NCBI RefSeq assembly: GCF_030409055.1
Contig: NZ_CP116619.1
Coordinates: 4,857,303-4,890,579, forward strand
Direction: 5' to 3'
Length of the DNA stretch: 33,277 nucleotides
DNA from: Trichocoleus desertorum NBK24
GTDB lineage: Bacteria > Cyanobacteriota > Cyanobacteriia > FACHB-46
Made by a program: the position numbers and the translations under genes. Positions 13,616-30,340 of the stretch are shown here, piece by piece (the stretch's first letter is position 1; each line of letters begins with the position of its first letter). The notes under the pieces were generated by a model. It ran no database searches. It was not told the origin of the DNA and saw only the letters and a list, made by a program, of their open reading frames with translations.

Positions 13616-13652
13616 CTTCTCCAAACCAACCTATTAAAAGGTCTTAACCACT

Positions 13653-14910: not shown

Positions 14911-15272
14911 ACCTAAACGAATACCCTCAAGCGATCGCCCAAGCCTCAACCCTCGTTAATGATCTGGAATTTCAGATCAACCAGACCAAGCGAATCATCA
15001 CCGCAGTAGAAGGCAGAGTTGATTCTCAAGTTGCCTTTGGTGACTTCAAGAACGATCCTCAGCGCAAAGCTGCCCGCTTTGATCTACTCCACACTGATGC
15101 TGACTACCAGGGAGCACTCCATAACCTCGGTCAACTGATTGCAGCTAAAGCCAAGGCGATGGTTCAACTAGAGCTAACCCGCAATCAATATTCTGTCGCG
15201 AAGATTGAAGCCAGAGCTGAGATGGTGAGGCAAATTGCCGCTTTAGATTGCGCTGAATTTGTTGGCTTGTAA
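14907..15272 (+). CDS. Coiled-coil protein of phage-accessory type, 121 residues
   Basis: The sequence begins MNLNEYPQAIAQASTLVND and is mostly long helix: DLEFQINQTKRIITAVEGRVD, a short AFGDFKNDPQRKAARFDLLHTDADYQGA loop with the KND-x-Q-R-K-A pattern, then LHNLGQLIAAKAKAMVQLELTRNQYSVAKIEARAEMV and a tail QIAALDCAEFVGL. I associate this two-helix pattern with small accessory proteins of phages and integrative elements; their role is not settled. It probably forms a coiled coil. It is translationally coupled to the 43-residue gene. A palindrome element follows 5 bp after the stop. In the right arm only the two ends of this protein survive, fused (29031-29108). Confidence 0.7.
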   Translation: MNLNEYPQAIAQASTLVNDLEFQINQTKRIITAVEGRVDSQVAFGDFKNDPQRKAARFDLLHTDADYQGALHNLGQLIAAKAKAMVQLELTRNQYSVAKIEARAEMVRQIAALDCAEFVGL

Positions 15273-15276
15273 TTCG

Positions 15277-15296
15277 TTTTCCCCAATTGGGGAAAA
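15277..15296. repeat. Perfect 20-bp palindrome TTTTCCCCAATTGGGGAAAA
   Basis: It lies 5 bp after the coiled-coil gene stop. The flank AGCTCAACGGCGATCGCTT is shared with the right-arm copy at 29012-29030. On both strands the stem is followed by A, not T, so an intrinsic terminator is unlikely; a protein-binding site or cruciform is possible. Confidence 0.85.
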
Positions 15297-16035
15297 GCTC
15301 AACGGCGATCGCTTTCCACTTCACTAGGGTCGATCGCTTCCCTCTGTACTCCCTCACTTAGTAGCATTTCAGGTTTTCCAATGATTGAATTTGACACCAA
15401 AATCTTCAGGCTAGGACGCTTGTGCAAAAACGGTCATGACTTTAATGGCTTAGGGCAGAGTATTCGGTATCAAAGCAACGGTAGATGTATTGATTGCATG
15501 ACGGATACGAAGCCATACATCAAGCGAGAAAAGCATCCGGTACCAGAGCATTTAATAGGAACTTTTGATCCATTGTTGTTCCGCTTAGGCAGTTTATGTA
15601 GAAATGGTCATGACTTTAACGGCAGTGGTAAAACTCTCAGAAAAATAGATGGTGGCCACTGTCTAGATTGCTTGAGAGACTACAAGCAATCTTATTACCA
15701 GGAAAACCGCGAGACAGTACTTGCCAAGCAAGCAGCTCATCGACAGGCCAACCTAGAAGAGGTGAGGCTTCGCAAAAGGAAATGGTACAGAGACCATAGG
15801 GAAGAACACCTCCAACAATGTGCTGAGTACAGAGAGAAGAATAAGGAGAAAATTGCAGCAAGACGGGCTCTTTACTATCAGAGAAATAAGGAGAAACGTG
15901 CTGAGTGGAACGCTAAATATCAGCGAGAAAATAGAGATAAACTTCGTGTCAGTCGTGCTCAGTATTATCAGAAAAACAAGGAAATCCTTGCCCAGAAAAG
16001 CGTTGAATACCGCGCAAGAAATGCAGAAGCTCTTA

Positions 16036-16948
16036 GAGGGTGTTTGAAAAGTCGGGTAAACAGTAGAAAAGCTCACTCAGTGTAAGCTGCGAATACGAAA
16101 GAACACAGCACCGAGTGAGCTAGATGGGTAAATCCTATCCCAGTAATCTGACCCGTGCCGAATACGAATTTCTCAGTGACCTGATTCCAGAAGCAAAACC
16201 CGGTGGTCGCCCACGCAGCATCGAGATGTGGGCAGTTCTCAATGCCATCTTCTACGTCCTAGTCGAGGGGTGTCGTTGGCGAGCGTTGCCGGGAGACTTT
16301 CCGGCATGGCAGACGGTGTATACCTATTTTCGCAACTGGCGCAAGGACGGCACTTGGATTGTGATTCATGACCGCTTACGTGAGTGGACGCGCATCGAAG
16401 TGGATCGCCAGCCCAGTCCCTCTGAAGCGATCCTCGACTCGCAAAGTGTCAAAACGGCGGCAGGGGTGAGCGAACAGGTGGGATTTGACAGTGGCAAAGT
16501 GATCAAGGGGCGCAAGCGGTTTATCAGTGTCGATACCTTGGGACTGGTGCTGCGTGTGTTCGTGACTGCTGCCAGTGTGGGAGAACGAGCAGGGGGCAAA
16601 CGGGTACTCAAGCGGGTCAAACGGATGGACAAAGCTGTGTTTCGTCTAACCACCATTTGGGTCGATGGTGGCTTTGATGGCGCACCGTTCCTAATGTGGG
16701 TGATGGACGTTTGCCGTTGGATTATCCAAGTGGTGCTGCGACCTGAACAAACCAAGGGGTTCGTGCTGCTCAAAAAGCGATGGGTGGTGGAGCGGACATT
16801 CGGTTGGTTGATGCACTGTCGTCGTCTAGTGCGTGACTATGAGTTATTGCCAGAGACCTCAGAGACATTAATCTATCTGGCAATGATTCGGATAATGGTC
16901 AAGCGATTGGCGTAAACTTTGACTCGTTACAACTTTTCAAACACCCTC
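16036..16948 (+). mobile_element. IS5-family insertion sequence, 913 bp
   Basis: Terminal inverted repeats GAGGGTGTTTGAAAAGT lie at 16036-16052 and (as complement) 16932-16948, identical over 17 bp. A TTA target duplication flanks it (16033-16035 and 16949-16951), which fits the T-N-A target of IS1031/IS427-type IS5 elements. If the element instead starts at AGGG, the duplication reads CTTAG. It carries one transposase gene. The ends and the gene look intact, and excision restores the host frame, so the insertion is recent. Confidence 0.92.
16124..16915 (+). CDS. IS5-family DDE transposase, 263 residues
   Basis: This is a complete transposase with an N-terminal DUF4096-like region (LTRAEYEFLSDLIPEAKPGGRP ... 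WRALPGDFPAWQTVYTYFRNWRKDGTW) and a DDE catalytic core: D105 in ILDSQSVKT, D181 in TIWVDGGFDG, and E223 in RWVVERTFGWLMHCRRL. The Y-(2)-R-(3)-E-(6)-K-type signature after E223 is only loosely met. It is read from a single frame, unlike IS427-type elements that need a frameshift. The start is 88 bp inside the left terminal repeat. All catalytic residues are present, so it may be active. Confidence 0.93.
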   Translation: MGKSYPSNLTRAEYEFLSDLIPEAKPGGRPRSIEMWAVLNAIFYVLVEGCRWRALPGDFPAWQTVYTYFRNWRKDGTWIVIHDRLREWTRIEVDRQPSPSEAILDSQSVKTAAGVSEQVGFDSGKVIKGRKRFISVDTLGLVLRVFVTAASVGERAGGKRVLKRVKRMDKAVFRLTTIWVDGGFDGAPFLMWVMDVCRWIIQVVLRPEQTKGFVLLKKRWVVERTFGWLMHCRRLVRDYELLPETSETLIYLAMIRIMVKRLA

Positions 16949-17382
16949 TTAGACAATATAGAGCCCTTCGTCTTAAAGATCCCAGAGTCAAAGCTTGCAG
17001 ATGGAAGAATGAGCAAAAACGCAGAGCCCTAAAAGCCGCAAACCACCACGCAGCATTTACATTAGAGCAGCTACAAGAGCACTTTTCTAAATTCAATAAC
17101 AGCTGTGCCTACTGTGAAAAGCTCACCAAGCTAACAATTGACCATTTCATACCGATTAGCTTGGGCGGTTCGGATTGCCTGAGCAATATTGTTCCAGCTT
17201 GCCGAGGTTGTAATGCTTCCAAAAATAAAGCTGATCCGAAGCACTGGTACAAACGTCAGCCTTTTTACTCTTCGCGACGGTGGAAGCACATTCTCAAGGT
17301 TTTAGGTAAGGCTGAGGATAACTACTCTCAGATACCTCTGCTTTAGCTCTCGAAATATCTATAGACACCTAATACCTGCGAC

Positions 17383-17407
17383 AAGCGCTCTAACAGGCGC
17401 TTTTTCT
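17383..17407 (+). terminator. Intrinsic terminator after the split HNH gene
   Basis: AAGCGC (17383-17388) pairs with GCGCTT (17397-17402), followed by a T-run to 17407. It would separate HNH transcription from the tape measure gene. Confidence 0.75.
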
Positions 17408-17461
17408 TTGGGCGACTGACCCGTAGGAACCCTACGACGATTCCCTAGTCGTTGCTGTGTC

Positions 17462-20400
17462 ATGCCTGAAGAAATTGGGTCGCTGAGTATATCCCTTCAC
17501 CTGGAAAAGGAGCAATTCAATAATGACCTTCAGGCCCTGGAAACGCTCCAGTCGCCGGAATTGGCGATCGCGCCCAAATTAAATACGGACGGCATTGGTA
17601 GGCAGCTTCAGGGACTTCAGGGTGAAGTTGCAGTTGGCTTGCGACTGGAGAAGGGGCAGTTTGAGCAGCAGTTGCGCGAGCTTGGTAGTCAGTCCGGGCT
17701 GAGCATCACCGTCGGGGTGCGACTGGATGATAGTGGCGTTTTAGATCAGGCTAGTGCCCTCAAGGGTCAGCTAGAGCAGCAATTTGGGCGGGTCAAGCTA
17801 CACCTCAAGCCAACAGTTGACGACTCGGCTCTGACCAAACTCAATCAACACCTTGACCTAAAGCAGCGGCACTTTGCCCAGGTTCGACGGGACTTTCGCA
17901 ATCCTGTTAAACCTGCGATCGATACCTCTGAACTAGATGCAGCCTCAGCCCAGTTTGATGCACTGAAGCAGAAGATCGCCGATCTCCAGAATCAAGCGGC
18001 TTCGGTTCGTTTCACGGCAGACACCAGCGAAGTTGATGCCCAAATCAATCGACTTCAAGGCAAGAGTATTCGGCTCAAATCCACCGTGGAGGGGGGTGAG
18101 TCTTCTGCTACTGAGTCGGCGGATATCTTTGCTAAGGCGATCGCTAAGGCTCTCAAGAAGAGCAATTCTAAAGGCATTTTTGGCGGACTGTTTGAGGGGA
18201 TTGGCTCAATTGTTTCCGCTCCCTTCAAGGTAATCGGCGGCACAATTTCCAACGTTTTCACAGGCGTTGGCTTAGGGATTGGAGAGCAAATCAGCAAAGA
18301 CCTAGGGCAGGGGTTGTTTGCTGGGATTGAGGATGAGCTGTCTCCCCTAATTGGTAGTTTTGAGCTGGTCGGTCGCAAGGCTGGGCAGGCGCTTACAAAA
18401 GAGCTGTTAGACGCGCTAGGGGGAGACGCAGCAGGGATTCAGCGGGTACTTAGCGAACTGCTGGGACAGGATGATGTTCTCGTCCAATCTGGGGTTAAGC
18501 AATCTCGCCGCAAGAAGACGAATAATAGCGATCGCGTTGAAGCGACCCGATTCTTTCAAGAGGAAGATCAGCAACTTGCCCCCAAGGAGCGGGTGAAGCT
18601 AGTTAGGCAGCAGTCTAAGTTATTTGATATCGAACCTGCACTCCTTAACGACCAAGAAAAAGAATTAAAAATTAAGGTTGGTCAACAGGTTCAGAAACTC
18701 GATCAAGCTCGGATTAAAAAACTTGACAACACAAAGATCGCTAAGCAAGTTGAGCTAGTTACCAAGCAGATAGAGACAGAGCAACAAAATCTTTCTGCAA
18801 TTCAAAATAGATTAAAGCAGCAAGAAGCGGCGATCGCTGATGCCGAAAAGCTGGTAGAGGCGCTAAAGGTTAGTGACCCCAAATCGCCCAAGCTAGCACT
18901 GGCAAAGGAAAATCTTAAGCAACAACGTGCTGGCCTTTTTGACGCCCAACAACAACAGCAAGCCAGCCAAAACACCACCTCTCGCCTGACAAATCAACGA
19001 GAGGAGCTTAAGGGGCAAGATAAACCCCTGGCAGTTCAAATTGAGGCAGCGGCGGAGCGAGTTAAAGCTGAAAACAGTAAGCTCAAGCCCATTCGCGGCA
19101 CCCTGGATCTGCGACAGAAAGAGGTTTCAGAGGCTCAAAAAAACCTCTCAACGCTGAGGCAGGTTGATCCAAAATCCCCCGAATTTAGCCAAGACAAAAT
19201 AGATAAAGCTAGAGAGGATTTAGCACAGAAGCAAGCTCGTTTAGCCCTAGCTCAAAAGGCGGCGGCGGCAATTAGCAGTAATGTCCTGCAATACTCCAGC
19301 AAGTTAGACCAACTGGTAAAGACTTTAGACTCCTTTGAGGAGACAGCAAACCAGGTCTTTCAGCCGCAGTTTGAACAGCTTGAAATTGCAAGAGATAGCT
19401 TACGAGATCGACAAAGGCGATTCACCAAAAAGAATCAGATTTTAACGGCTCCTGATGCTTTGGGAAGAATTCAGGCTCCTGAAACTTTGGACGCTGCGAT
19501 CGCGGATAGTCGATCTAAGATTTCAGCAAAAACTGAAGAACGCTCTAAGGTCCGCGCTGATCTTGTTCAAGGTCAAGACCAGATTGCAACGGCGCGAACT
19601 TTAGCACGACAAGAGCGAGAGAACGGAGAAAAATTTACAGCAGAATCCAAGAAGGGGCTAAAGGTTTCTACCCTGACTCCTGAGCGGGTTAAGGCAGCGG
19701 TCAAGCCTAGCGCAGTATCTCCGGTCGTTGACGAAAAGAAGATTCGGCGACTGAACGAAATTGCGATCACGCTGGAGGAAGACACCCAGGTTGTTCGATT
19801 TGCAAAATACAGGCAGCTAAATAGGGAGATTGCTAAAGAGGAGGCTTTAGTTCAATCACTGTTGGCGCAAAAATCGACGACCGCTGCAAAGAGTTTTAGC
19901 GCAGGCAAGCTGCGACAGGAAATCACCAAAGCAATTGGTGAGGAGAAGCGGCTAGATGCTGTATTAGAGAAGCAGATTGCACTTGGTAACGAAGCTGAGG
20001 TCAAACGCCTTGAAGGACTAAAGCAGCAATACAAAGGCAAAATCGACGCTTTACGCTCTCAGCTAGCATTGCTGGGGGATGCGGGGAGTGCGTCTCCTGC
20101 TGCGACTTCAGCCCCTCCTGCTGCACCTTCGGCCACCCAAGCCAAGCCATCACAAAGCCAGTCCGCCAAGCAGTCGTCTACTGCTGAACCCCTGCCAGTT
20201 GCCTATGTCCAGGCCATCCAAAAGTCAGCGCTGGCAATTACGGGGCAGTCTATTCCAGCCGAAAAGATTCCATCCCTAAAGGAAACAACCAAAAACGGAC
20301 TGGGTGCAGGGTACGTTCCTGAGAAAAATGCGATCGCACTTCAGCCTAACTATCTAAAAGTTTTATCAGAGAAGGTCACTAGAGACTCGCTCGGAGAACT

Positions 20401-23400
20401 TGAAGAAGCGATTGGGTTAATTACACATGAACTCACCCATGCTTTTCAGTTCGATTTTGGTAAAAACGATCCTCAGGATACTGGCTTCAATCCGTTAGAG
20501 GGGCTGAATCCGACTCCGCAGGAGGTTAAAACCTTTGGCTCTAGGGTTGAGCAGTCTGTGGCTTCTGGCGAATTCAAGAACCGGGATGTCATCAGAGGCT
20601 TGGAGTCTCAGGCTTATGTTGCTCAAGGACGCTTTGGGCCGCAGATTGCCAAAGACGTCATCAAGCAAAAAGCGATCGCTCAAGTCCAGGATGCAGGAGG
20701 GTTTGGGGGGGTAAAACTCAAAGACAGCCTCACTGGTTTGTACGGCAACCTAAAAGAAGTAATTGCCGAGGCCAAGGCAGCGGGAATTGATGTTACTGCC
20801 GAAAGAGACGCAATCCTGCAAAAAGCCAGCGCGGCTAGAGAGCAAATCGTTCCTCTAATCCAAAAGAGCGCAAATCTAGAGATTCTGCCAGTCGAGGAAA
20901 TTCTAGATTTACAAGAAGAGTTTGAGAAATCAGTCGGCACGCTAGTTCCGATCGCAGGAGATATTCAGCGACTCAGGGATCGAATTGCAGGCAAGGCAAC
21001 GCAGGCAGGCATCGCTCAGCCTGGGGCGGTAGGTCCAACCAGTGGGCAGTCCGCAGCAACCAACTTCAAAAGTACTCTGGGACTTGGGGCGGGCAAACTT
21101 CGCGGCGGATTAGAGCAAGCGGAATTCGCGATCGCAGGCACGCTTCAGGAGATCACGGAAGTTGCCGCAGCGCTGGGGGTAGAATCCGCTCAAGAAATTC
21201 AAGATGCGATCGCCAACATCAACAAAGCCAAGGCTGACCTAGAGCCACTGTTCGACAAAGCGGCTCAGGTCGATATCCTACCTGTTGAAGAGATTGCGGC
21301 GCTGCAAGAGCAGATTCAGGCTAAAACTCAGGCCGCGATCGACATCATTGAGAGCCAGCCCGACATCGTTACTCAGCAACTAGAGGCCAAAGCAGGTAGC
21401 GGAGGGCTTGCAACTCAGGAAGCTCCTGAACCAGCAGCCGATCGCGAAGAGCTACAGGGGCTGTTGCGTCAATTTGGGGTCAAGAAACTGCGGCCTCTGG
21501 CTCAAGAGTTTGGCATCAATACAGAGGGACTGAAGAAAGGGCAGATCATTAATCGACTCACTAGTGAGGTCGATCCTCAAGTCCTTCAGCCCAAGGTATT
21601 TGAACTCACGCGGGCCAAGGCTCAGCAGCAGGTCGCTCGCCAAGAGCAGTTAGGGGCGATCGCTCAAGGTACTGGCAGCGTTGCCAAGAAACTACTAGAG
21701 GCAGGGCAGAACATTGCAGGTGTGTTGGCTCCCTTTACGGGTGCGGCTGGCAATGCGGTCAAGGCTTTGGGTGCAGTTGCTAAAGGTGGCTACAAGTTAG
21801 CCGAGGCTAGTGAATCGCTAGTGCTGGACATCATCCCCTTTGGTCGCACTGCCAAGGGTATCGGCCAGCAGTTCGTATTACCTGCTGCCACATTTGCCGC
21901 TGCCTCCCACCTACCAGGCGGGCACTTAATAGCGGAAGGGCTAACCAACGTCGCGACGGGTGCGATTAGTCCGTTTGCTCATGGGGCTGCGGGAGGGGCG
22001 ATCGATGCAGCAAGCGGTTTTATCAACCATGCCGTCCCCAATGTATTTGGGCTGCAAAGTCATCTAACTGGGGCAGTTAGCGGTGGCATTAGCTCACTTG
22101 CAGATACAGCAACCGGAGTATTGGGGCAGGCAGGAGCTGCGGTCTTAGGTGGCAAAACCATCACGGCGATCGCGGGTCGTGGGGCGAATGCAGCGGGTAG
22201 TGCAGTAGTTAATGCACTGGCACCGGGAGAAGACAAAAAGGCGCTGCCACCTGCGGAACCTGCACCTCTCGCTATTCCAGAAGCACAGCCGCTCAATATA
22301 CCTCTACCAGAGCTGACGGCTGAGGCTAAGGGTGAATTAGTGCCAGTCACTAAAGTTGAAGCGCCGATCGCTAAAACCAAGACTGCCAATGAAGTTGTGC
22401 GTCAAGCTGGAGAGCAGGCGGGTAAGGCTTTCAAGGCGACAGCGGACAAAGGGCAGGCGATCGCGGACAAGGCCAAGCAGACAGCGCAGGCTGTTGCTAG
22501 CACGGGTCAACAAGTCTTCAACGTTGTTCGCCAAATCAACCCAGACGAGGCACTGGAGCAAGCCAAGAACATTGCCTCCAGTTTTAACGGCACTTACAAA
22601 GAGCTAAAGGACGCTCTAACTGCTCAGAAGAAGGCTCTTAGAAAAGGCGACTTTAGTGCAGCGCGGGATTTAGGGAAAAAGGCTCAAGGCTTAGCAAAAA
22701 CAGTTCTTGACCTAGCCGACAAAGCCCAGCAGGACATTGCGGGCCTCACCAGCTCCCTAGGGGATGCCGCTGCGTTTGGCACGGATTTAGGCGGCAAGCT
22801 AGCCAACAAAAAAGCTCAGATTTCACGAGTTCGCAACGAAGTTTCGCGAGTTCAGCGAATTGGCAAGCTTGATGACACTGCGGGGGTTGTAGACGTTTCT
22901 TCGACCAGTAGCCCTGCCGAGGATGACGGCTTAGCGGCGTTTGGCGATCTCCAGAAGCAGATTGAAGAGCGAATCCAGAAGCTACGGGAACTGGCTCAAT
23001 CGACGCTAAAAGATGAAAGCTTCCTGACCGATCAAGCGGTCAATATTGGCGGGCTTGTTGGCGGCAAGATTGGATCACAGTTTGGCCCCGTGGGTGAGGC
23101 GGGCGGTGACATAATCGGCGCGCTGGCGACTCGACAAGCCATTACGGTTGGCAAGGCTACCAATACTGCCTTTAACACCATTAAGGATACAGACGAATTT
23201 AAGCAGGCAGGTAAATTCCAGCAACTCATCCTGCTAACTCGGCAACTCAAAAAAGAGCTGCAATCTCCCGAAATCCAAAAAGCCTTAGGGGGAGAGCTAA
23301 CGGGTGACATTGCGGGCTTCGTGATTGGCAATATCGCCTCCAAGCTGGGAGGGGCAGGACTCCAGGCGCTAGGCGGCGCAGTGCCAGGGGCGCAGATGCT

Positions 23401-26400
23401 GAGCATGGTTCCTCAAGGGGCGATCGCGGCCAGCATTGCAGTTCCTAAGATTGTTCAAGCCAGAGAACGCTTTGCTAGTAACGCCCAAGCAGTGCCAGGC
23501 GACGGACTAGCAGCCTTCGGTGATATCAACCTGGAAATCCAGAAGCGGTATCAGCAGATTGCCAAGCTGCTCAATGGGGGTGCGCCAAGCTCAAGCACAG
23601 CCGACATTCAGGCCAAGCTGCAAGAACTCGATCGCGAGATTGATCAATATGTAGGCGATCGCATCGACACTCTGGGAACGGAAGTGGCGCTAGATGATAA
23701 CTCCCCAGCAACTCCTGAGCTTGAGGCTCCCGAACTCACAGACAGACGCAGACGCAAGCAGCAGGCGCTATCCCCAGAACAGCAACAGAAGTTTGCAGCT
23801 CTAGAGATTGAGGCAGAGCGCGACCTGAATGAGGATTTAACGCCTGATGCTTTGGTGAATGCGGCCAAGTTTGATGCCGCAGCAGAACGGATCAGCAACA
23901 GAACTAATAACACGTTTGAGCAGGGAGCAAAGCAAGACCCTCTGGCATCTAAACCTGCAACTGCGGGCGATCGGCTCAAGGCGACTGCTGGGAAGGAGCT
24001 GGGCGAGTATGGCAAGGCACTTCAGCAGGGGATTGGGCAATTTGGTGTTGACCTGAGTAAGTTGCCAGGATTTGCTCAGGGTATCTTTGCCAAGCTGGCG
24101 GAGGGGCCAAAGGCTCTTAATGATGCCTTTAAGGGGCTGTTGGGTAATGTTGGCAATTTAGCCAAAGCCTTTGCTGCATTCCAGGGAATTCAATTTGCTG
24201 CCAGTCTCCTCTCCAATCTTGGCCAGCAAGCTCTTAGCGCCTCAATCAGGCTGGATAACTTGCGGACAGCGCTCAACTACTCAAGTGGTGGCGAGGATGC
24301 TGGCGGCCAAAGCTTAGCATTCGTCAATCGACAGGCGGACGAATTTGGGGTTCCCTTGGAGCCATCTATTGAGGGTTTTACTAAGCTGTCGGCTTCTACC
24401 AAGGGAACTGCGATCGAGGGCAAGGCTACCGAAGATATTTTTACAGGCGTTTCATCAGCAGCAACAGTTTTAGGATTAACCGCTGACCAAACGAGCGGTG
24501 TATTTCTGGCCTTTTCCCAGGCAATGTCTAAAGGGAAGCTGTCGATGGAGGAGTTGCAGCAGATCGGAGAGCGCGTGCCCGGAACCTTTTCTCTGGTAGC
24601 AAGATCGCTCGGAGTGAGCGAAGCACAGCTTTCCAAGATGCTCCAGACAGGGCAGGTTTTGTCTGAAGACGCTTTGCCAAAAATTGGTAAGGAATTTATC
24701 AAGACCTTCGGTGGCAGCGCTAAAACAGCGAGTGACAATGCTCAGTCATCCATCTATAAGCTGCAAAACTCTATTACCCGATTGCAGCAAAGCGCTGGAG
24801 ATATTATCAAGCCTGCTGCTAGCGTAGGCGCGAAAGCATTAGCTGGAGTCTTCGATCTCTTAGCTAAAAATAGTGACAAAGTTGTGGCAGTTCTGGGAAT
24901 TGCAGCGGCTGTGACGATACCAGCCATTCTCGCTGGTTTAGCAGTCTTAGGCCCAGCACTCGTTGGTTTAGCAACAACCACATTTCCATTTTTAGCTGCT
25001 TCTGCAACTGCGGCTTTTGCTGCACTTGGCCCAGTAACCTTGGCGATCGCAGCCGTTGGAGCTGTAGCGGTGGCAGTCGCAGAACCGGGTGCTCGTGCTC
25101 TAGCTAACGCCCTTAATGGCACTACCCAAGCTGCGATCGAGGCAGTAGATGCCCTAGCAGCGCTAGATGGCCGCTATAACAAGTTACTAACCAGGAAGGG
25201 TGGAGCATCACAAGAAGAAGTTGCAGGTATTAGCAAAGAGATTCGGGATCAAGCTGCTAAAGGTGAATACCTGCCAGGGGCCACCATTCAGAAAAATCAG
25301 CAAGTTGCTGAACAATTGATTGCTCAATTGGAGCGAGTTGCAGCGGCATCAAGAGCGGCGGCTGAAGCCAAGAGGCAGTTACTTCTATCGATTAAAAATT
25401 CTGCTGAAGCTTTTGCCAATGAAAGCAGCCAACTAGACATTCAGGACGTTAACCAACAACGAGTCATTCAAGAAGGTGTCAATCGAGGCGACTTAACCGA
25501 GGGTCAGGCAAGGCAGCTCAACATTGATGGACAGAAAACAATTCTTACCGAGCGAGCCGAACTTCAAGACAATCGACTATCAGACCTGAATACCCAATTG
25601 CAAGGACTGCAAAAAGATCCCAGTTCCAGTCCCGAATATCTCGAACAAGTCACGAAAATTCAGGAGGAGATCAAAACTGGGGAGTTGCAGTTAGCGCAAA
25701 CTCGCCTGCAACTGGCTCAAAGCGTAGCAGAGGGTAAGAAAAATTCAGAGCAGGATATTCTGAAGAGTTTTCAGGATGCGAATGCTCAGGCTGAGGCAGC
25801 TATTCGTAGATCTGAAACCGACAGAATCGCTGGCATCCGGGGCAAGCAGCTTAAAGGTATTCTGACTACTGACCAAGCAGAAGCACAGATTGCCACGACC
25901 AAAGAGGATTCTGCCACTAAAGATTACGAGGAAACGAAGCGGCAGCTCAACGAACTCAATCAGTTGAAAGTTGAAGGGGGGCTACCTGCCGAAGAAATTG
26001 CCAAGCGTGAACTAGAACTGAATCAAAAGCTGTCGGATGCCAACCTGAGACGGATTGAGGCTCAAATTGCAGCCCGTGACCAAGAGAAGCGACGCATCAT
26101 CGAGAACTTAGATTTAGCTAATCGCAAGGCTGAAAGCGCGATCGCCCTCTCTCAAACGACTCAAACCACAGCCATCAAGCGACAGGTGTTCTCAGGTGAT
26201 GCAACCTCAGAGCAAGCTGCCATTGGTCAGACTGAGGTTCAGCAAGAAGCAACTCGCAAACGCATTGCTCTGTTGAAGCAGGAGCTGGCAGATACCGAGC
26301 GACTTAGGGCTGATGGCACCTATAACCCCAAAGAAGCGACTGAGAAGGAACTACAGCTAAAGCAAAAGTTGGCAGAAGCCAACGGGCAGTTGGTTGATGG

Positions 26401-27949
26401 TGAAATCCAGAAGCAGGAGCAATTACGAGCTGCGATTGAGCGAACCTTCCAACGGCAGCAGGAGCAACTGAAGCTCGCTAGTAAGCAGACAGCCAATCAA
26501 ATTGATCGCGATGCTTTAGTCACTCTTAAAGCTGGGCCTGTAGATGCTAAAGGGCTAGACCTGCAAACCCAGAGTCTCAAGCTCAAGAATGATGGCAATG
26601 GAATCGCTCAGAATCTCACCCTATCTCAGCAAGAACTAGCCGCCATTGATGCCCTCGGCCAAAAAGACCAGGCAGCAGCGGACAAGAGAAAAGCGCTTGC
26701 TTTGCAGATTGCCGACCTACAAGGCCAGCTAATCGCGAATGAGAAAGAACAGTTCCTCAATGCTAGAGAGCAAGAAATTCGAGCCATTGAGGAGCGGGCA
26801 GCAGCTCAGAAACGGGCATCCGAAGAGGCGATCGCGGGTGTTCAGCAACAAAAAGATGCCAATGATTTGCTCCTCAGTTCACTGGATGCCCAGTCCAAGC
26901 TGCTAGAAAGTCGCAATGGTTTGAGTCAGGCACTCAATGAAGTGGATCTGGCTCGATTGGGTGGTGAGTCCAAGGCTAGCGATCGCTCTCTAGGTCTACG
27001 TCAGAAACTCAACGACAAAAAACTTGATCCAACAGTTCGTAAGGAGGCGGAACGACAGCTCAGATCTGAGGGCTTCAACCCAAACACCACTGAACTGAAG
27101 ATTCTTGAGCGCAAGCAGGCACTAGAAGATGAGATCGCTGCAAAGAAACTTGCCGCCTTGGGTGCAGAGCAGGAATTTCAACGCAGGGCACTGGAACTGG
27201 ACTTACAACGACAGAAGATAGCGGCCCAAAACCTCTTGTTTGAGGCGGAGATTTCCAAACTACGCTCAGAAGCTAACCAGGCAGAGGCACGAAGCAATCT
27301 GGAAATTGCTCAAAAATCTGGGGATACGACCAAAATTGCCGAGGCTCAAGCCAAGTTGAATTTGGCTGATCGTGAGGTAGGGTTAAGCGATCGCAAGCTT
27401 ACTAATGCTCAAACCAGCTTGGGCTTGCAAGATGAGTTTGCCAGCAATGCCCTACAGACACAGGGAGCCAAGCAGCAGACAGAGCGGATCAACTTCAATT
27501 CGGAGCAAGAGTCTAGGGAGAGTGAGAGAGGCTTGAACCTAGCAGAGGCGATCGGCAAAACTCCTCGCAGTGGTCGTAAAACTTTCGCGCCTCGCAGTGC
27601 ATCGCGCGGTGGTCGTAGCGTGCCCAACCTGCCTGAAATCCGAGCCTCTGAAGGCATCGATCCTTCGATTGGTCGTACGGCTCCTCAATTCCCAACTTCT
27701 CGCCCTGTGGAAACTCCCAGCAACAAAGCCCCCAGCCCTAGCAATAAGGTGACGGAGCTTAATGACAGTCTGCGGCTGGCCGTGTCTGCCTTGACCGCCA
27801 TGCGACCACAGATCGATAAGATTGCCCAGGAGTTGAGCAAGCCACGGGTTGAAAACCTGTATGTCAGCACACCAACCCCTGTGAGCGATGCAGGTTCAAT
27901 CTTGAGCGACATCGCTTATCAGGGTGCGGTGGGTGCAGGACTGGCTTAA
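17462..27949 (+). CDS. Giant phage tail tape measure protein with zincin-like and SAP-like segments (3495 residues)
   Basis: Tape measure proteins set phage tail length and help DNA ejection. The core domain at about 2260-2440 (LRTALNYSSGG ... FVNRQADEFGVPLEPSIEGFTKLSAST ... MSKGKLSMEELQQIGERVPGTFSLVARSLGVSEAQL) matches the TMP_3/TIGR02675-type signature. A hydrophobic block follows at about 2475-2545; others lie near 236-290, 1443-1520, 1855-1900 and 1948-1998. Residues 390-900 and 2640-3350 are coiled coil. Two unusual parts: HELTHAFQ at 989-996 with a possible third ligand E1048 (gluzincin pattern), and a SAP-like KKLRPLAQEFGI ... GLKKGQIINRL near 1341-1365. Internal repeats include ILPVEE (about 1139 and 1270) and DGLAAFGD (about 1820 and 2013). 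No Shine-Dalgarno site precedes ATG 17462; two competing small hairpins (17422-17452) do. No other tail gene is nearby. Confidence 0.92.
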   Translation: MPEEIGSLSISLHLEKEQFNNDLQALETLQSPELAIAPKLNTDGIGRQLQGLQGEVAVGLRLEKGQFEQQLRELGSQSGLSITVGVRLDDSGVLDQASALKGQLEQQFGRVKLHLKPTVDDSALTKLNQHLDLKQRHFAQVRRDFRNPVKPAIDTSELDAASAQFDALKQKIADLQNQAASVRFTADTSEVDAQINRLQGKSIRLKSTVEGGESSATESADIFAKAIAKALKKSNSKGIFGGLFEGIGSIVSAPFKVIGGTISNVFTGVGLGIGEQISKDLGQGLFAGIEDELSPLIGSFELVGRKAGQALTKELLDALGGDAAGIQRVLSELLGQDDVLVQSGVKQSRRKKTNNSDRVEATRFFQEEDQQLAPKERVKLVRQQSKLFDIEPALLNDQEKELKIKVGQQVQKLDQARIKKLDNTKIAKQVELVTKQIETEQQNLSAIQNRLKQQEAAIADAEKLVEALKVSDPKSPKLALAKENLKQQRAGLFDAQQQQQASQNTTSRLTNQREELKGQDKPLAVQIEAAAERVKAENSKLKPIRGTLDLRQKEVSEAQKNLSTLRQVDPKSPEFSQDKIDKAREDLAQKQARLALAQKAAAAISSNVLQYSSKLDQLVKTLDSFEETANQVFQPQFEQLEIARDSLRDRQRRFTKKNQILTAPDALGRIQAPETLDAAIADSRSKISAKTEERSKVRADLVQGQDQIATARTLARQERENGEKFTAESKKGLKVSTLTPERVKAAVKPSAVSPVVDEKKIRRLNEIAITLEEDTQVVRFAKYRQLNREIAKEEALVQSLLAQKSTTAAKSFSAGKLRQEITKAIGEEKRLDAVLEKQIALGNEAEVKRLEGLKQQYKGKIDALRSQLALLGDAGSASPAATSAPPAAPSATQAKPSQSQSAKQSSTAEPLPVAYVQAIQKSALAITGQSIPAEKIPSLKETTKNGLGAGYVPEKNAIALQPNYLKVLSEKVTRDSLGELEEAIGLITHELTHAFQFDFGKNDPQDTGFNPLEGLNPTPQEVKTFGSRVEQSVASGEFKNRDVIRGLESQAYVAQGRFGPQIAKDVIKQKAIAQVQDAGGFGGVKLKDSLTGLYGNLKEVIAEAKAAGIDVTAERDAILQKASAAREQIVPLIQKSANLEILPVEEILDLQEEFEKSVGTLVPIAGDIQRLRDRIAGKATQAGIAQPGAVGPTSGQSAATNFKSTLGLGAGKLRGGLEQAEFAIAGTLQEITEVAAALGVESAQEIQDAIANINKAKADLEPLFDKAAQVDILPVEEIAALQEQIQAKTQAAIDIIESQPDIVTQQLEAKAGSGGLATQEAPEPAADREELQGLLRQFGVKKLRPLAQEFGINTEGLKKGQIINRLTSEVDPQVLQPKVFELTRAKAQQQVARQEQLGAIAQGTGSVAKKLLEAGQNIAGVLAPFTGAAGNAVKALGAVAKGGYKLAEASESLVLDIIPFGRTAKGIGQQFVLPAATFAAASHLPGGHLIAEGLTNVATGAISPFAHGAAGGAIDAASGFINHAVPNVFGLQSHLTGAVSGGISSLADTATGVLGQAGAAVLGGKTITAIAGRGANAAGSAVVNALAPGEDKKALPPAEPAPLAIPEAQPLNIPLPELTAEAKGELVPVTKVEAPIAKTKTANEVVRQAGEQAGKAFKATADKGQAIADKAKQTAQAVASTGQQVFNVVRQINPDEALEQAKNIASSFNGTYKELKDALTAQKKALRKGDFSAARDLGKKAQGLAKTVLDLADKAQQDIAGLTSSLGDAAAFGTDLGGKLANKKAQISRVRNEVSRVQRIGKLDDTAGVVDVSSTSSPAEDDGLAAFGDLQKQIEERIQKLRELAQSTLKDESFLTDQAVNIGGLVGGKIGSQFGPVGEAGGDIIGALATRQAITVGKATNTAFNTIKDTDEFKQAGKFQQLILLTRQLKKELQSPEIQKALGGELTGDIAGFVIGNIASKLGGAGLQALGGAVPGAQMLSMVPQGAIAASIAVPKIVQARERFASNAQAVPGDGLAAFGDINLEIQKRYQQIAKLLNGGAPSSSTADIQAKLQELDREIDQYVGDRIDTLGTEVALDDNSPATPELEAPELTDRRRRKQQALSPEQQQKFAALEIEAERDLNEDLTPDALVNAAKFDAAAERISNRTNNTFEQGAKQDPLASKPATAGDRLKATAGKELGEYGKALQQGIGQFGVDLSKLPGFAQGIFAKLAEGPKALNDAFKGLLGNVGNLAKAFAAFQGIQFAASLLSNLGQQALSASIRLDNLRTALNYSSGGEDAGGQSLAFVNRQADEFGVPLEPSIEGFTKLSASTKGTAIEGKATEDIFTGVSSAATVLGLTADQTSGVFLAFSQAMSKGKLSMEELQQIGERVPGTFSLVARSLGVSEAQLSKMLQTGQVLSEDALPKIGKEFIKTFGGSAKTASDNAQSSIYKLQNSITRLQQSAGDIIKPAASVGAKALAGVFDLLAKNSDKVVAVLGIAAAVTIPAILAGLAVLGPALVGLATTTFPFLAASATAAFAALGPVTLAIAAVGAVAVAVAEPGARALANALNGTTQAAIEAVDALAALDGRYNKLLTRKGGASQEEVAGISKEIRDQAAKGEYLPGATIQKNQQVAEQLIAQLERVAAASRAAAEAKRQLLLSIKNSAEAFANESSQLDIQDVNQQRVIQEGVNRGDLTEGQARQLNIDGQKTILTERAELQDNRLSDLNTQLQGLQKDPSSSPEYLEQVTKIQEEIKTGELQLAQTRLQLAQSVAEGKKNSEQDILKSFQDANAQAEAAIRRSETDRIAGIRGKQLKGILTTDQAEAQIATTKEDSATKDYEETKRQLNELNQLKVEGGLPAEEIAKRELELNQKLSDANLRRIEAQIAARDQEKRRIIENLDLANRKAESAIALSQTTQTTAIKRQVFSGDATSEQAAIGQTEVQQEATRKRIALLKQELADTERLRADGTYNPKEATEKELQLKQKLAEANGQLVDGEIQKQEQLRAAIERTFQRQQEQLKLASKQTANQIDRDALVTLKAGPVDAKGLDLQTQSLKLKNDGNGIAQNLTLSQQELAAIDALGQKDQAAADKRKALALQIADLQGQLIANEKEQFLNAREQEIRAIEERAAAQKRASEEAIAGVQQQKDANDLLLSSLDAQSKLLESRNGLSQALNEVDLARLGGESKASDRSLGLRQKLNDKKLDPTVRKEAERQLRSEGFNPNTTELKILERKQALEDEIAAKKLAALGAEQEFQRRALELDLQRQKIAAQNLLFEAEISKLRSEANQAEARSNLEIAQKSGDTTKIAEAQAKLNLADREVGLSDRKLTNAQTSLGLQDEFASNALQTQGAKQQTERINFNSEQESRESERGLNLAEAIGKTPRSGRKTFAPRSASRGGRSVPNLPEIRASEGIDPSIGRTAPQFPTSRPVETPSNKAPSPSNKVTELNDSLRLAVSALTAMRPQIDKIAQELSKPRVENLYVSTPTPVSDAGSILSDIAYQGAVGAGLA

Positions 27950-27952
27950 TGG

Positions 27953-27971
27953 TTTCCCCAATTGGGGAAAA
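27953..27971. repeat. CCCCAATTGGGG palindrome after the tape measure gene
   Basis: TTTCCCCAATTGGGGAAAA begins 3 bp after the TAA of the giant gene and ends 8 bp before the stop of the converging HNH gene, so it fills the gap between the two convergent genes. Confidence 0.85.
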
Positions 27972-27979
27972 GTTGGAGG

Positions 27980-28939
27980 TTATAGCAAGGGAATCTGGTT
28001 ATAGTTTTTCTCGGTCTTGCCTAAGACCTTGAGAATTTGACGCCATCGTTTTGCCGAGTGGAAAGGCTGATGCCTAAACCACTCTTTTGGGTCTTTATTC
28101 TGCTTGCTGCTATTACAGGATCGACAAGCAGGTAACAAGTTCCCTAAGGTTTCTGAGCCTCCATTGGCGATCGCAATGAAATGATCAAGCGTCAAAACCT
28201 CCGGTGAAGCACAATAAGCGCAGCAGTTACTAAAAGCTTCAAGGATGGACTGTTGCTGCTCAGGTGTATACGAAACCTGATGATTGAGCTTTTTAATCGC
28301 TTCCCGCTTTTGCTCTAACTGCCGTCTAATCAAGCGCCCTCTTGGACTTGTACGCCAGATTTTATTTCGAGCTAATTTCTGCTCTCTATGCTTCTGATAA
28401 TTTTTTTGGCCCCTCTGCCTATATTTTTCTGGGTTTAATTTACGATCCTCACGTTTTTGAGCTAGGATTGCCTCTCTGTTTTGAAGATACTTAGCCCTAC
28501 CGTACTCAATCAATCTTTGGGAGTTTTCTTGTCTGTACTGCTTGTTGTAATTAGACCTTTCAAGCCTCTTGCGTTTGTAATACTCACGCATGTAGTTACG
28601 TCTTTTCTGACGGTTGCGTCGGTTGTAGTCAAGTTCTCTTTCTCTCGCCTTCTCAAGATTATTTAGCCGATACTGGCGATCCTTCTCTTTGAGTCGCTCT
28701 GAGTTTTGCTGTCGGTACTGCTGGTTATATAACTTCTTGGCCTCAATATTTTCCTGATAATATTCGGCCTTGCGAGCTAAAATCTTCTCTCGATTTGCCT
28801 GGTAGCTTTCCTGCTTGCACGCCACACAACTGCGATCGCTAAGGTGTCTCAGGCTCTGCTCTGATTGCTCGAAGTGATGTCCTCGCTTGCAGAGTTGCCC
28901 TAAGTAATACTTGCTTGTATCAAACTCAAAGTTGCTCAT
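27980..28939 (-). CDS. HNH endonuclease with zinc-binding N-terminus (right copy, intact)
   Basis: The 319-residue protein has one N-terminal zinc-like motif (C17, H21, C38, C41 in LCKRGHHF ... SCVACK), against two in the left copy. A very basic region of about 170 residues follows, with repeated Tyr/Asn-rich units (YYQENIEAKKLYNQQYRQQN and similar), probably a long DNA-contacting helix. The HNH core is near 238-278: CAYC, LTLDHFIAIANGGSETLGNLLPACRSCNSSK. The C-terminus ILKVLGKTEKNYNQIPLL is almost the same as in the left copy. It is expected to be an active DNA-cutting or nicking enzyme. It converges on the tape measure gene, so the two HNH genes flank that gene in opposite orientation. Confidence 0.88.
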   Translation of the reverse strand: MSNFEFDTSKYYLGQLCKRGHHFEQSEQSLRHLSDRSCVACKQESYQANREKILARKAEYYQENIEAKKLYNQQYRQQNSERLKEKDRQYRLNNLEKARERELDYNRRNRQKRRNYMREYYKRKRLERSNYNKQYRQENSQRLIEYGRAKYLQNREAILAQKREDRKLNPEKYRQRGQKNYQKHREQKLARNKIWRTSPRGRLIRRQLEQKREAIKKLNHQVSYTPEQQQSILEAFSNCCAYCASPEVLTLDHFIAIANGGSETLGNLLPACRSCNSSKQNKDPKEWFRHQPFHSAKRWRQILKVLGKTEKNYNQIPLL

Positions 28940-29011
28940 AAACCGATTATGGGTAGGTGGGACTAAAAAGCGATCGCCCCCTCAGCTCAGAAGAAGCGAT
29001 CGCCGTTGAGC

Positions 29012-29030
29012 TTTTCCCCAATTGGGGAAA
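29012..29030. repeat. CCCCAATTGGGG palindrome after the coiled-coil gene remnant
   Basis: TTTTCCCCAATTGGGGAAA adjoins the stop of the 25-codon remnant. Its flank (reverse complement AGCTCAACGGCGATCGCTT) matches the left-arm copy at 15277-15296. Confidence 0.85.
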
Positions 29031-29108
29031 CTACAATCCAACAAATTCAGCGCGATCTAAAACGGCTATCTGTTGCGCGATCGCTTGGGGGTACTGTTTT
29101 GAGTCCAT
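29031..29108 (-). pseudogene. Internally deleted remnant of the coiled-coil gene, 25 codons
   Basis: The frame reads MDSKQYPQAIAQ then QIAVLDRAEFVGL and a stop. The first 12 residues match the N-terminus (MNLNEYPQAIAQ) and the last 13 the C-terminus (QIAALDCAEFVGL) of the 121-residue protein at 14907-15272; about 96 central codons are missing. The fused frame is still open and could make a micropeptide. It sits between the hairpin at 29155 and the HNH gene, the mirror position of the intact gene. Confidence 0.85.
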
Positions 29109-29154
29109 AGCAGTGGTATCATTTAATACAATTGAATCGTGAAGATTTAGACAA

Positions 29155-29190
29155 CGATCGCCCCCTACCGCATATAGAGGAGCGATCGTT
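29155..29190 (+). terminator. HIP1 hairpin with T-run, right-arm member of the array family
   Basis: Its reverse complement matches the second hairpin of the left array (14191-14230) over about 40 bp, base for base through the loop TATATGCGGTAG. On the plus strand it ends CGATCG followed by six T, so it would stop rightward transcription into the genes at 29201-30105 from their 3' side. Confidence 0.75.
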
Positions 29191-29200
29191 TTTTGTGCTT

Positions 29201-29659
29201 TTAGAAGCCGTACAAGTACACATCTCGCTCATCAACCGCATTGATTGCTGCCAAGATTGCCTGTTGCTGCAACTGGGGAAACTGGATTAACGGGTACTCA
29301 ATCCCTTGATCCCACATCCCCAGAAAGCAAGCTCTGCCCTGAGTTTTGACTGCTTCATCCACCAGTCCATCTAAATCTTTTACAACCGTAGTTAGAATGC
29401 GTTGTTCTTCATCGCAGCAACCCCCTTGGATGTAGCAAATGAGCTGGATCGCCACATCAGCGGGGGATAGGCAGGAGTATTTCAGGATCAAGTTTGGGTT
29501 TACATCCGCCAAGCACTCTTTAGCGACTTGTCGAGCTGTAATCTCAGCTTGTTGCCCAGTAGCGACGATATAGTTCTTGTCATCCAAACAGAAAATAGGC
29601 AGACCGAAGAAGTCTTCAGGCAATTTTTTGAGTAGAGGGGGAGTGATAGCAGGAGTCAT
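29201..29659 (-). CDS. Hypothetical protein, 152 residues
   Basis: Not recognised. It is acidic and soluble: PLLKKLPEDFFGLPIFCLDDKNYIVATGQQAEITARQVAKECL, a Cys-rich middle (KYSCLSPADVAIQLICYIQGGCCDEEQR), then a helical part (VVKDLDGLVDEAVKTQGRACFLGMWDQ) and a C-terminus ending AINAVDERDVYLYGF. The Cys pairs (CCDEE) are not arranged like a standard zinc finger. It has no left-arm counterpart; the hairpin array occupies that position. It starts after a terminator (29681-29717) behind the acidic-protein gene, so it may have its own weak promoter or be read through. Confidence 0.65.
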   Translation of the reverse strand: MTPAITPPLLKKLPEDFFGLPIFCLDDKNYIVATGQQAEITARQVAKECLADVNPNLILKYSCLSPADVAIQLICYIQGGCCDEEQRILTTVVKDLDGLVDEAVKTQGRACFLGMWDQGIEYPLIQFPQLQQQAILAAINAVDERDVYLYGF

Positions 29660-29680
29660 AAACCTTGCCAGATAGGAGAC

Positions 29681-29717
29681 AAAAGAAGGCAGTCACCCGT
29701 TTTTGTGAGTGACTGCC
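29681..29717 (-). terminator. Intrinsic terminator after the acidic-protein gene (right copy)
   Basis: GGCAGTCA (29688-29695) and TGACTGCC (29710-29717) form an 8-bp stem with a 14-nt loop. On the minus strand the stem is followed by TTCTTTT. It lies 13 bp after the stop of the gene at 29731-30105. Confidence 0.8.
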
Positions 29718-29730
29718 GGGAGTGAGTTAG

Positions 29731-30105
29731 TTAGAAGGGGCAACCGTCCGTAGGAGTCCAGGTCTCGTTGATCTTCCAGCAAGAATCGAAGTGATTGCGG
29801 ATGATGCGAGTGATGAAGGCAAAGCGATCGTTGTTCGTTACGAGGTCAACTAGGCGCTCGTTGCCTTGGCAGTCTTCGAGTTGAATGATTAACCGGATGG
29901 GCTGCTTGGTGATGGGGCGATCTTCATCCATCACTGAGAGGTAGGTGTAGCCGTCGGTGATGGTGAGGCTGTCGATTTTGGCAGGGGCGATCGAACGGAC
30001 TTGCTCTTCTAGGTAAGTTTCGAGTTCTAGTTGGGCAGTTGCTTGGATGCGGCCAGAGCCACGCTCTTCTTCGGTTTGAGTGGGTGCAATAGTTTGAAGT
30101 AGCAT
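29731..30105 (-). CDS. Acidic protein of unknown function, 124 residues, right copy
   Basis: From QTEEERGSGRIQATAQ onward the sequence is nearly the same as the left-arm protein at 13653-14036, with a few changes (Asp/Gln, Ile/Thr, Asn/Gly). The N-terminus differs (MLLQTIAPT against MVYAPDRIQTPP), so the match starts inside the gene. I chose ATG 30105, with AAGGA 10 bp upstream and a length close to the paralogue; a longer frame from 30195 would run through the leader hairpin. The gene is divergent from the ribbon-helix-helix gene, across a region with three operator-like repeats. Confidence 0.75.
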   Translation of the reverse strand: MLLQTIAPTQTEEERGSGRIQATAQLELETYLEEQVRSIAPAKIDSLTITDGYTYLSVMDEDRPITKQPIRLIIQLEDCQGNERLVDLVTNNDRFAFITRIIRNHFDSCWKINETWTPTDGCPF

Positions 30106-30135
30106 AGTTATATCGATCCTTAGAGTAGGTTTCGT

Positions 30136-30178
30136 AGAGAGAAGGCGATTTGCGGTGAGAGGCGATCGCCTTCTCTCT
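30136..30178. promoter_or_regulatory. Strong leader hairpin before the acidic-protein gene (right copy)
   Basis: AGAGAGAAGGCGAT (30136-30149) and ATCGCCTTCTCTCT (30165-30178) form a perfect 14-bp stem with a 15-nt loop. It lies 31 bp upstream of the ATG at 30105, in the minus-strand leader, and could act as an attenuator or RNA-stability stem. Confidence 0.55.
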
Positions 30179-30192
30179 ATTTCAATATAAAT

Positions 30193-30273
30193 CAAGTGAT
30201 GTCAGATTGATGCAAATGTGTCATCACTTGTTCTGATGAAAGGTGACTAGAACCATAAAATCAAGTGATGTCA
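30193..30273. promoter_or_regulatory. Three 12-bp operator-like repeats
   Basis: CAAGTGATGTCA occurs at 30193-30204 and 30262-30273, and inverted with one change (TGTCATCACTTG) at 30219-30230. They lie in the divergent promoter region and are the natural sites for the ribbon-helix-helix protein encoded at 30341. The left arm has none of them. Confidence 0.65.
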
Positions 30274-30340
30274 CATATATACACTTTGATGCCTAGCATG
30301 GCTATACTGATGATGTCGTCAGATAATAGCGAGGTACCAA

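Follow-up and report, generated by a model that had tools for sequence, protein, structure and literature searches.

A giant tape measure gene between related islands in the late region of a Trichocoleus desertorum prophage

The closest known systems to the locus considered here are helper-embedded phage-inducible chromosomal islands (HE-PICIs) and homing endonuclease gene islands (HEG-islands). In the parts of their report on which we draw, Tommasini, Mageeney and Williams (2023, PMC10111431) describe HE-PICIs as having one clade of integrase together with AlpA and a primase, and as lying inside one late gene of a helper prophage in the same orientation; among the 208 helper prophages that they mapped, a pair of HE-PICIs in one prophage was seen once. 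HEG-islands, in the partial account used here (Barth, Dunham and Seed 2023, PMC10448857), consist of essential phage genes or operons, for tail or capsid, with homing endonuclease genes on either side whose classes are interchangeable. The locus that we compare with these is a 33,277-nucleotide stretch of the chromosome of the cyanobacterium Trichocoleus desertorum NBK24 (NZ_CP116619.1), referred to as the window, which holds a giant tape measure protein (TMP) gene with an island on each side. These two islands (5 and 6) belong to a set of six related ones which sit between the late genes of one prophage, and it is because of them that the late genes look solitary. With about as much belief as doubt, we favour an explanation in which integrase-less, satellite-like defence islands accumulated in this one late operon, likely by nuclease-assisted recombination, a mechanism which we infer from sequence. 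Coordinates are window-relative throughout, with negative values to the left of the window.

A tape measure gene within a chromosomal prophage

The window corresponds to positions 4857303-4890579 of a single chromosome contig of 5,458,034 bases, in a genome rated 99.99% complete, and its flanks were inspected for 60 kb on each side and for a further 60 kb leftward. A perfect 59-bp repeat at -102422 and 46130 bounds a prophage of 148,552 bp. The left copy of this attachment (att) repeat, found by comparing the two boundary regions only, overlaps the 3' part of a tRNA-Ser(cga) gene and has a phage-type integrase (phrog_1) alongside, while the genes past the right end, read by eye, look like ndhC/K/J and leuC/D. 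From left to right the prophage carries the integrase, early genes (including those for a 499-aa DnaD/O-like replication protein and a single-strand-annealing-like protein, E 4e-5), a TerS-like open reading frame (ORF; labelled by eye and without Pfam match), and then TerL, portal, scaffold and major head protein, all four identified by PHROGs and the capsid also by PF20036. These are followed by a tail-fibre-like gene with weak PHROG matches to tail and head fibre, a tube-like gene with a weak tail-tube match (E 0.0055), gene A (phrog_34388, a PHROG of unknown function), the TMP gene and a gene of 817 aa. The last is without family match, is similar to the gene behind the TMP gene of a related genome (G358, considered below) and is called baseplate-like because of its place. 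All recognised late genes run in one direction, and when the prophage was searched against itself in translation at E 1e-4, none of the terminase, portal, capsid and tube genes turned up twice, two short 3' ends aside. The element thus has the features of a temperate tailed-phage prophage, namely att sites and an integrase at a tRNA gene together with terminase, portal, major capsid protein and tape measure, and the TMP belongs to this att-bounded, probably siphovirus-like prophage.

The TMP gene itself (17462-27949, + strand) encodes 3495 aa and is intact, with an ATG start and no internal stop, as a first-pass annotation of the window had proposed. Its identity is given by PF20155 (TMP_3; E 1.2e-26, residues 2256-2443) in Pfam, TIGR02675 (E 5.2e-17) in NCBIfam and phrog_2335 (tail length tape measure protein; E 5.4e-51, residues 2093-2858) in PHROGs, and by a resemblance to the solved tape measure structure 9ndy_F (E 3.3e-13). 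The conserved TMP_3/tape_meas_nterm domain falls at 24227-24790 (+), and at E 0.001 the protein is the sole TMP_3 match in the genome. Family similarity is confined to residues ~2093-2858, so that the span of about 520 nm calculated earlier for the protein is sound as arithmetic on the whole chain but has tape-measure similarity beneath it only in that part. Residues 1-2000 gave no match at E 1e-5 among 50,697 phage and 72,556 plasmid records. With the C-terminal 1495 residues, tblastn matched 777 phage records, all at less than 60% identity and none covering 80% of the query (12-20% is covered among the 25 phage matches listed), and 12 plasmid records; a search of viral contigs with protein-derived patterns found no close relatives of this part, and two sister genomes gave no match to it at E 1e-30. 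A HELTH sequence, an HExxH metalloprotease-like motif, occurs at residue 989 (20426-20440) in the N-terminal half of the protein; the region has no Pfam match, and a single-sequence structure model of it is unreliable (mean pLDDT, the predicted local distance difference test score, 40).

The first-pass annotation had presented this gene as an orphan on a plasmid-like element, and it was right that no capsid, portal, terminase, tube, sheath, baseplate or lysis gene is recognised in the window among the ORFs scanned or read, the only other late-operon piece there being a 3' fragment of gene A (5930-6280). Beyond the window, however, the terminase, portal, capsid, tube-like and baseplate-like genes are found in the same att-bounded prophage, which makes the TMP gene a phage gene in a large element. 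The chromosomal flanks and att sites lead us to reject a plasmid-borne or orphan TMP. The suggestion of a phage-plasmid was correct as to a large phage element, but this one is a chromosomal prophage at tRNA-Ser, on a single 5.458-Mb contig and with an att repeat; what remains plasmid-like about it is a Rep cassette with weak, partial plasmid relatives. The further proposal of a solitary tape measure gene that has become mobile drew on the HNH genes which do stand on either side of it. We find it hardly credible, as the other structural genes are ordered around the TMP gene within one prophage, the 3' end of the TMP gene recurs exactly at the end of island 6, and the flanking sequence has already refuted the idea for this genome. 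Since the late-gene order is canonical and colinear with that of an island-free relative, it is the islands rather than the TMP that look like the newcomers, although the TMP block may have moved by homing, as proposed for HEG-islands.

An ordinary siphovirus prophage with morons shows integration at a tRNA gene, a canonical late order and, in the late operon, defence or toxin-antitoxin (TA) genes in the opposite orientation. The T. desertorum prophage resembles such a prophage in all three respects, and differs in that inserts make up half of it, as six units whose replication cassettes are homologous. A PemK/MazF-like toxin gene at -23412..-23026 (L003:16588-16974), on the opposite strand in the late operon, is a small moron.

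Six islands with a shared cassette

The six islands, whose limits are taken as the flanking late genes on each side, range from 9.7 to 17.2 kb and total 75,122 bp, or 51% of the prophage; their removal from the 148.6 kb leaves a phage of ~73 kb. Island 1 occupies -63942..-46758, island 2 (reversed) -42492..-30070 and island 3 -22183..-7914. Island 4 (-4464..5929, +) has its right part (1..5929) in the window, with a 263-aa gene, Rep and cargo that includes a KAP NTPase. Island 5 (6281..17461, -) is reversed, with cargo, Rep, small genes, an antirepressor gene and a helix-turn-helix (HTH) gene on the - strand and the 127-aa, 121-aa and HNH genes on the + strand. Of island 6 (27950..37618, +) the window holds 27950..33277, with HNH, 152-aa and 127-aa-family genes on the - strand and slot genes, an antirepressor gene and small genes on the + strand. 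Every island has a homologous cassette of two operons: the leftward one pairs a 127-aa-family gene with a gene of 121 or 152 aa, and the rightward one has slot genes, an antirepressor-like gene, small genes and Rep. In island 5 the 127-aa protein is encoded at 13653..14036 (+); it occurs in this genus only, in 3 of the 388 class genomes, and in none of the plasmid records; the 121-aa protein (14907..15272, +) is 63% identical to the prophage's own copy at -82002. Members of a ~40-bp repeat family containing GCGATCGC or near-variants lie beside the leftward-operon genes of islands 5 and 6 (14039-14688 and 29150-29189), and the GCGATCGC octamer has 369 copies in 213 kb, an abundance that, with the plasmid relatives of Rep given below, points to a cyanobacterial host.

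Rep is a replication-initiation-like protein of 350 aa, recognised in island 4 (873..1925, +) by phrog_428 (E 6.6e-7) and in island 5 (9958..11010, -) by similarity to the other copies. The genome has six full-length Rep matches, all in the prophage and all open. Across the 15 pairs the ratio of nonsynonymous to synonymous divergence (dN/dS) is 0.10-0.18, with dS at 0.31-0.60 (mean 0.42), and the middle third is far less constrained (dN 0.128, dS 0.199). This divergence under purifying selection points to old lineages under selection rather than to recent duplications. Rep has weak, partial relatives on 11 plasmids with cyanobacterial names (Nostoc, Tolypothrix, Acaryochloris and others) and none among phage records, and in genome contigs 63 stretches fit a Rep-derived pattern with none confirmed. 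Short Rep 3' fragments are seen past the intact Rep in island 6 (35863-35973, at most ~37 codons) and island 4 (2745-2822, at most ~26 codons), which suggests a second layer of the same type of insertion with gene-end replacement.

The regulators of the cassette have a shared C-terminus and a variable N-terminus, which is AntA-like in islands 3 and 4 and ORF6N-like in the other four (1, 2, 5 and 6). Examples in the window are the antirepressor-like genes of island 5 (12219..13166, -), with an ORF6N-like N-terminus, and island 6 (31436..32317, +), with a weak PF10543 match (2.9e-4) under the cut-off; ORF6N and AntA matches are all below the curated cut-offs, and the island 4 antirepressor has no Pfam match. 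Between the 127-aa gene and the antirepressor gene lies a repressor slot, in which DNA similarity between islands is limited to 37-76 bases near the edges in 8 of the 15 pairs. Its ORFs are of 72 aa in island 1, 85 aa in island 2, 178 and 78 aa in island 3, 80 aa in island 4, 89 aa in island 5, and 75, 86 and 150 aa in island 6. A family scan, applied to the slot proteins of islands 3 and 5 only, confirmed an HTH in the Cro/C1-type protein of island 5 (13206..13475, -; PF13443, HTH_26, 2.8e-12) and in the 178-aa protein of island 3 (HTH_31 with a weak GIY-YIG match). The island 1 slot protein is 58% and 49% identical to the two island 3 proteins, and that of island 4 shares 37% identity with the HTH protein of the prophage itself and has a weak likeness to island 3 (E 0.003); those of islands 2, 5 and 6 match no other slot protein at E 0.01. 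A set of six unrelated repressors is weakened by the homology between islands 1 and 3 and by the likeness of island 4 to the prophage HTH protein, though distinct immunities are plausible for most islands.

The Pfam scan covered 39 of the roughly 100 island ORFs listed. The remainder are mostly copies of cassette genes that it covered, apart from about 27, four of them longer than 250 aa. Cargo differs from island to island. Island 1 has a MTase_II with a DpdJ/Mko-like helicase, and AbiTii, and island 2 a PD-Lambda-2_B-like protein (both by PADLOC and Pfam). Among the scanned cargo of island 3 are transposases and unmatched proteins, with no defence match. Island 4 carries a KAP P-loop NTPase resembling the phage exclusion protein PifA (2872..5064, -; PF07693 5e-68, PifA 6e-118), island 5 a PadR regulator, and island 6 a TA-like pair, identified by eye, with a 94-96% identical relative in a sister genome (G002). 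No structural genes are recognised in the islands, and neither of the prophage's two integrases has a relative there.

Two other accounts of the arrangement can be considered. One would have six prophages of the same family integrating successively and then decaying to leave different blocks, as the resemblance of the cassettes to phage control regions, and the homology of some of their parts to the prophage's early region, would allow. We regard this as improbable, given that the late genes follow the canonical order without redundancy, save for the two short 3' ends, and that a single att repeat pair (in the two boundary regions compared) encloses the whole. The other is an assembly error, in which cassette repeats mis-joined unrelated contigs. 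Runs of N (163 and 344 bases) do touch both edges of the window, within the cassettes of islands 4 and 6, but the distance across each is the same, base for base, as in island 1, which has no gap (293 and 1081 bp), and this speaks for correct joins; moreover, the late-gene order fits G358 where the two are comparable, the pieces of gene A and of the TMP gene are found on the sides where correct joins would put them, and within the window alone there are cassettes on both sides of the TMP gene. We therefore consider mis-assembly very improbable.

Compared with phage satellites in general, the islands have a phrog_428 Rep and regulators, and their dependence on a helper would be by analogy. With HE-PICIs, as far as the source sections cover them, they share a position among prophage late genes, a replication zone and relatives outside prophages, and their regulator zone may correspond to the domain-swapping Bro-network zone of HE-PICIs; the swap is here one of antirepressor N-termini, with the sub-cut-off matches given above and none for island 4. 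They differ in there being six of them, with nuclease genes at the edges, two in reversed orientation, no late gene visibly disrupted, and a cyanobacterial host. The HE-PICI integrase clade and AlpA were not found among the scanned island ORFs, and with islands 2 and 5 reversed the common orientation described for HE-PICIs is absent. HE-PICIs are placed in a gene, with att duplications; these islands lie between late genes, with gene-end recurrences at two of the six.

Nuclease genes, recurring gene ends and a palindrome at the island edges

Each leftward operon ends in an outward-facing nuclease gene, which is of the HNH type in islands 2, 5 (where it is split) and 6, LAGLIDADG in island 3, GIY-YIG in island 4 and TnpB in island 1, and in five of the six islands it abuts a late gene. 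In island 1 other cargo, including AbiTii, lies between TnpB and the late gene. Both HNH genes in the window face the TMP gene region: that of island 5 (15381..17343, +), recognised by similarity to other HNH genes and with a first part lacking a Pfam match, abuts the TMP start and contains an IS4/5-type transposase gene (16124-16915), and that of island 6 (27980..28939, -; PF01844, 6e-10) is 30 bp from the TMP stop and faces the TMP gene. The TMP gene thus stands between HNH genes, one of them split by an insertion sequence, in the manner outlined for HEG-islands, and HNH and LAGLIDADG genes likewise enclose a block with the capsid gene at one end and a 132-aa gene at the other. In the parts of the source considered, essential phage genes are the proposed cargo of HEG-islands, unlike here, where ~8-14 kb of replicon-like DNA lies behind each nuclease gene; HEG-islands are also recognised there as blocks of high nucleotide identity between otherwise dissimilar phages; the comparisons here are at the protein level, with capsids at 56-57% aa identity.

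The 3' ends of two tail genes recur on the far side of the adjoining island. A 3' fragment of gene A (5930..6280, +; 110 residues, 68% aa identity) lies at the far edge of island 4, the full-length copy being at -4980..-4465, and the last 223 residues of the TMP (27278..27946, +) recur past island 6 at 37619-38275 with 68% aa identity. Both copies of the TMP end finish at a stop, and the pair has dN 0.23 and dS 1.5. Because of these recurrences no late gene is visibly broken, and such 3' ends are what donor-templated repair would leave. No recurrence was found at islands 1, 2, 3 and 5 with exact 12-mers or a translated search using five late genes and the TMP start, the low-scoring hits there being scattered and taken as chance.

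The preferred reading, in which the islands accumulated by nuclease-assisted recombination, would then run as follows. The islands would be satellite-like replicons, several with defence cargo, and their mostly different repressor-slot genes could permit coexistence. They would have come separately, via recombination begun by nuclease cuts near late genes, the cuts being repaired from a donor bearing the island and the neighbouring gene end, so that the old end was stranded. The lysogen would gain defence and the islands a free ride.

The edges are also marked by a 16-bp palindrome, TTCCCCAATTGGGGAA, which has 20 copies in the genome, all inside the prophage (-98074 to 38712); a reversed control has none, and the base composition of the region predicts 0.0013 per genome. 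Thirteen copies are in islands and seven in the backbone. Early ORFs contain three of them. Five follow the 121-aa gene, or what is left of it, at island left ends, and a further copy follows the 121-aa gene that belongs to the prophage itself. Every island has one copy in a conserved right-end context, six in all; the TMP stop and the second TMP end are followed by one apiece; and the last three are at -72420, -7921 and 38712. In the window they occur at 2491..2506 (right-end context of island 4), 7618..7633 (right end of island 5), 15279..15294 (just after the 121-aa gene, left end of island 5), 27954..27969 (just after the TMP stop, with a 36-bp context that recurs after the second TMP 3' end) and 29014..29029 (left end of island 6). 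Within the class the palindrome is rare, being present in 2 of 388 genomes. The 19-base right-end form is matched with 0-2 mismatches in the sister genome G002, beside island remnants (contigs C33 and C67) and also on contig C91, and at the C67 site both arms are changed and the palindrome is still perfect. In three other genomes (G001, G358, G120) every site has 3 mismatches, and their number, 1 to 3 per genome, does not exceed that of the control pattern. The palindrome is not unique in nature, as at least 120 genome-contig stretches and 14 viral stretches match it; several of the stretches come from two Anaerolineales metagenome-assembled genomes, among the 80 matches listed. When the 14 viral and 8 bacterial stretches were compared with the prophage ORFs, two (L074, L080) matched, both to a 987-aa protein. 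One viral contig, IMGVR_UViG_3300049734_000348 (L069, L071, L073), has three copies and no protein similarity in the stretches compared.

A role as intrinsic terminator is unsupported, since a terminator scan of 14000-33277 listed none of the three palindromes there, and the predicted folding of three palindrome contexts is little better than that of shuffled sequences (z -0.9 to -1.7). Our preferred guess is that the palindrome would be an operator or silencing site read by a protein common to prophage and islands; the alternative, a possible recombination site, is raised because palindromes bracket five of the six islands (not island 4). The stoperators of mycobacteriophages are dispersed repressor sites, short sequences repeated many times along one prophage and missing elsewhere in the host genome. 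The palindrome differs from these in being a perfect 16-bp palindrome, often just after a stop codon or at island ends. It also figures in a more elaborate and, in our view, doubtful scheme, in which six mutually compatible satellite replicons with mostly different repressors and no integrase were installed in one prophage by homing-type nucleases cutting island-free competitors, and are tied to the helper by the palindrome as a silencing or excision signal, so that induction would free up to six satellites and restore a packageable phage of ~73 kb. The slot homologies make this slightly less likely still.

Relatives and the origin of the islands

At E 1e-40 the capsid is found in four of the 388 class genomes including its own, with 56-57% aa identity in the other three. 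One of these relatives, G358, has a late region of ~29 kb without such islands, containing two reversed ORFs (379 and 182 aa, the latter reading like a tyrosine recombinase). Five of its 22 late ORFs, for portal, scaffold, capsid, a 130-aa protein and the baseplate-like protein, match here in the same order within ~24 kb; 16 are unmatched at E 0.01, and its TMP, which is of another family (PF10145), gave a chance-like coil match inside the split HNH gene. The G358 terminase is labelled by position only. Counted from the TerS-like ORF as far as the right end and with the islands removed, the late region of the T. desertorum prophage would measure 36.7 kb, which is of the order of that in G358. 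G120 carries a sheath gene and is for that reason considered a more distant, contractile relative. Neither the capsid nor the 127-aa protein has relatives among viral contigs in searches with protein-derived patterns.

Two sister genomes have island pieces with Rep fragments or with Rep split over two frames, along with some relatives of prophage early genes, and none of the 13 stretches searched in sister genomes matched the prophage late genes, which indicates that the island family exists apart from this late operon, in decayed form. One such remnant (G002:C33, L043) includes a Rep end, the palindrome and the TA-like pair (94-96% to island 6), and lies a few kb from a gene which reads, by eye, like a terminase small subunit.

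Several observations weigh against the favoured explanation of nuclease-assisted accumulation. In island 1 the edge is held by TnpB, not by a homing endonuclease, and the closest late gene is 3 kb away; the island 5 HNH gene is split by an insertion sequence; and recurring gene ends are seen at only two of the six islands. The slot genes are not six unrelated repressors, with no recognised HTH in island 6, and the satellite hallmarks of integrase, AlpA and primase were not found among the 39 of about 100 island ORFs scanned. The arrangement is known from one prophage, with no second genome known to have the same, and excision, replication and homing of the islands are proposed from sequence. 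A search of the open-access literature, with subscription papers mostly outside it, found no report of six islands in one prophage or of palindrome TTCCCCAATTGGGGAA.

These points give some room to an account by defence-module accretion, in which the islands are overgrown morons that never replicated or moved by themselves, acquired by homologous recombination between related phages at shared cassette and palindrome sequences, with the nucleases hitch-hiking. Several cargo genes are defence- or TA-like, and a PemK-like moron lies in the same late operon. The cassettes are mosaic, the 104-aa gene being identical in islands 4 and 6 (dS 0) although their Rep genes differ (dS 0.42), and the cassette 121-aa gene and the island 4 slot protein are homologous to the prophage's own. 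However, each island has an open, selected replication-initiation-like gene, for which a passive moron would have no need, and five of the six have an outward nuclease gene at a late-gene junction, so that we consider accretion possible but unlikely.

In one survey of embedded satellites, in the parts of it used here (PMC10111431), a helper prophage bore one integrase-borne element and once two. If the accumulation of satellite-like islands by nuclease-assisted recombination is true, it would be a second route for defence-carrying elements to colonise phages, with nuclease genes in place of integrases at the edges. It makes testable the movement of 10-kb cargo by homing nucleases, the coexistence of several satellites and the survival of interrupted late operons. 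It is also a warning that, where the contig is short, a structural gene which looks 'solitary' can be all that shows of an interrupted prophage.

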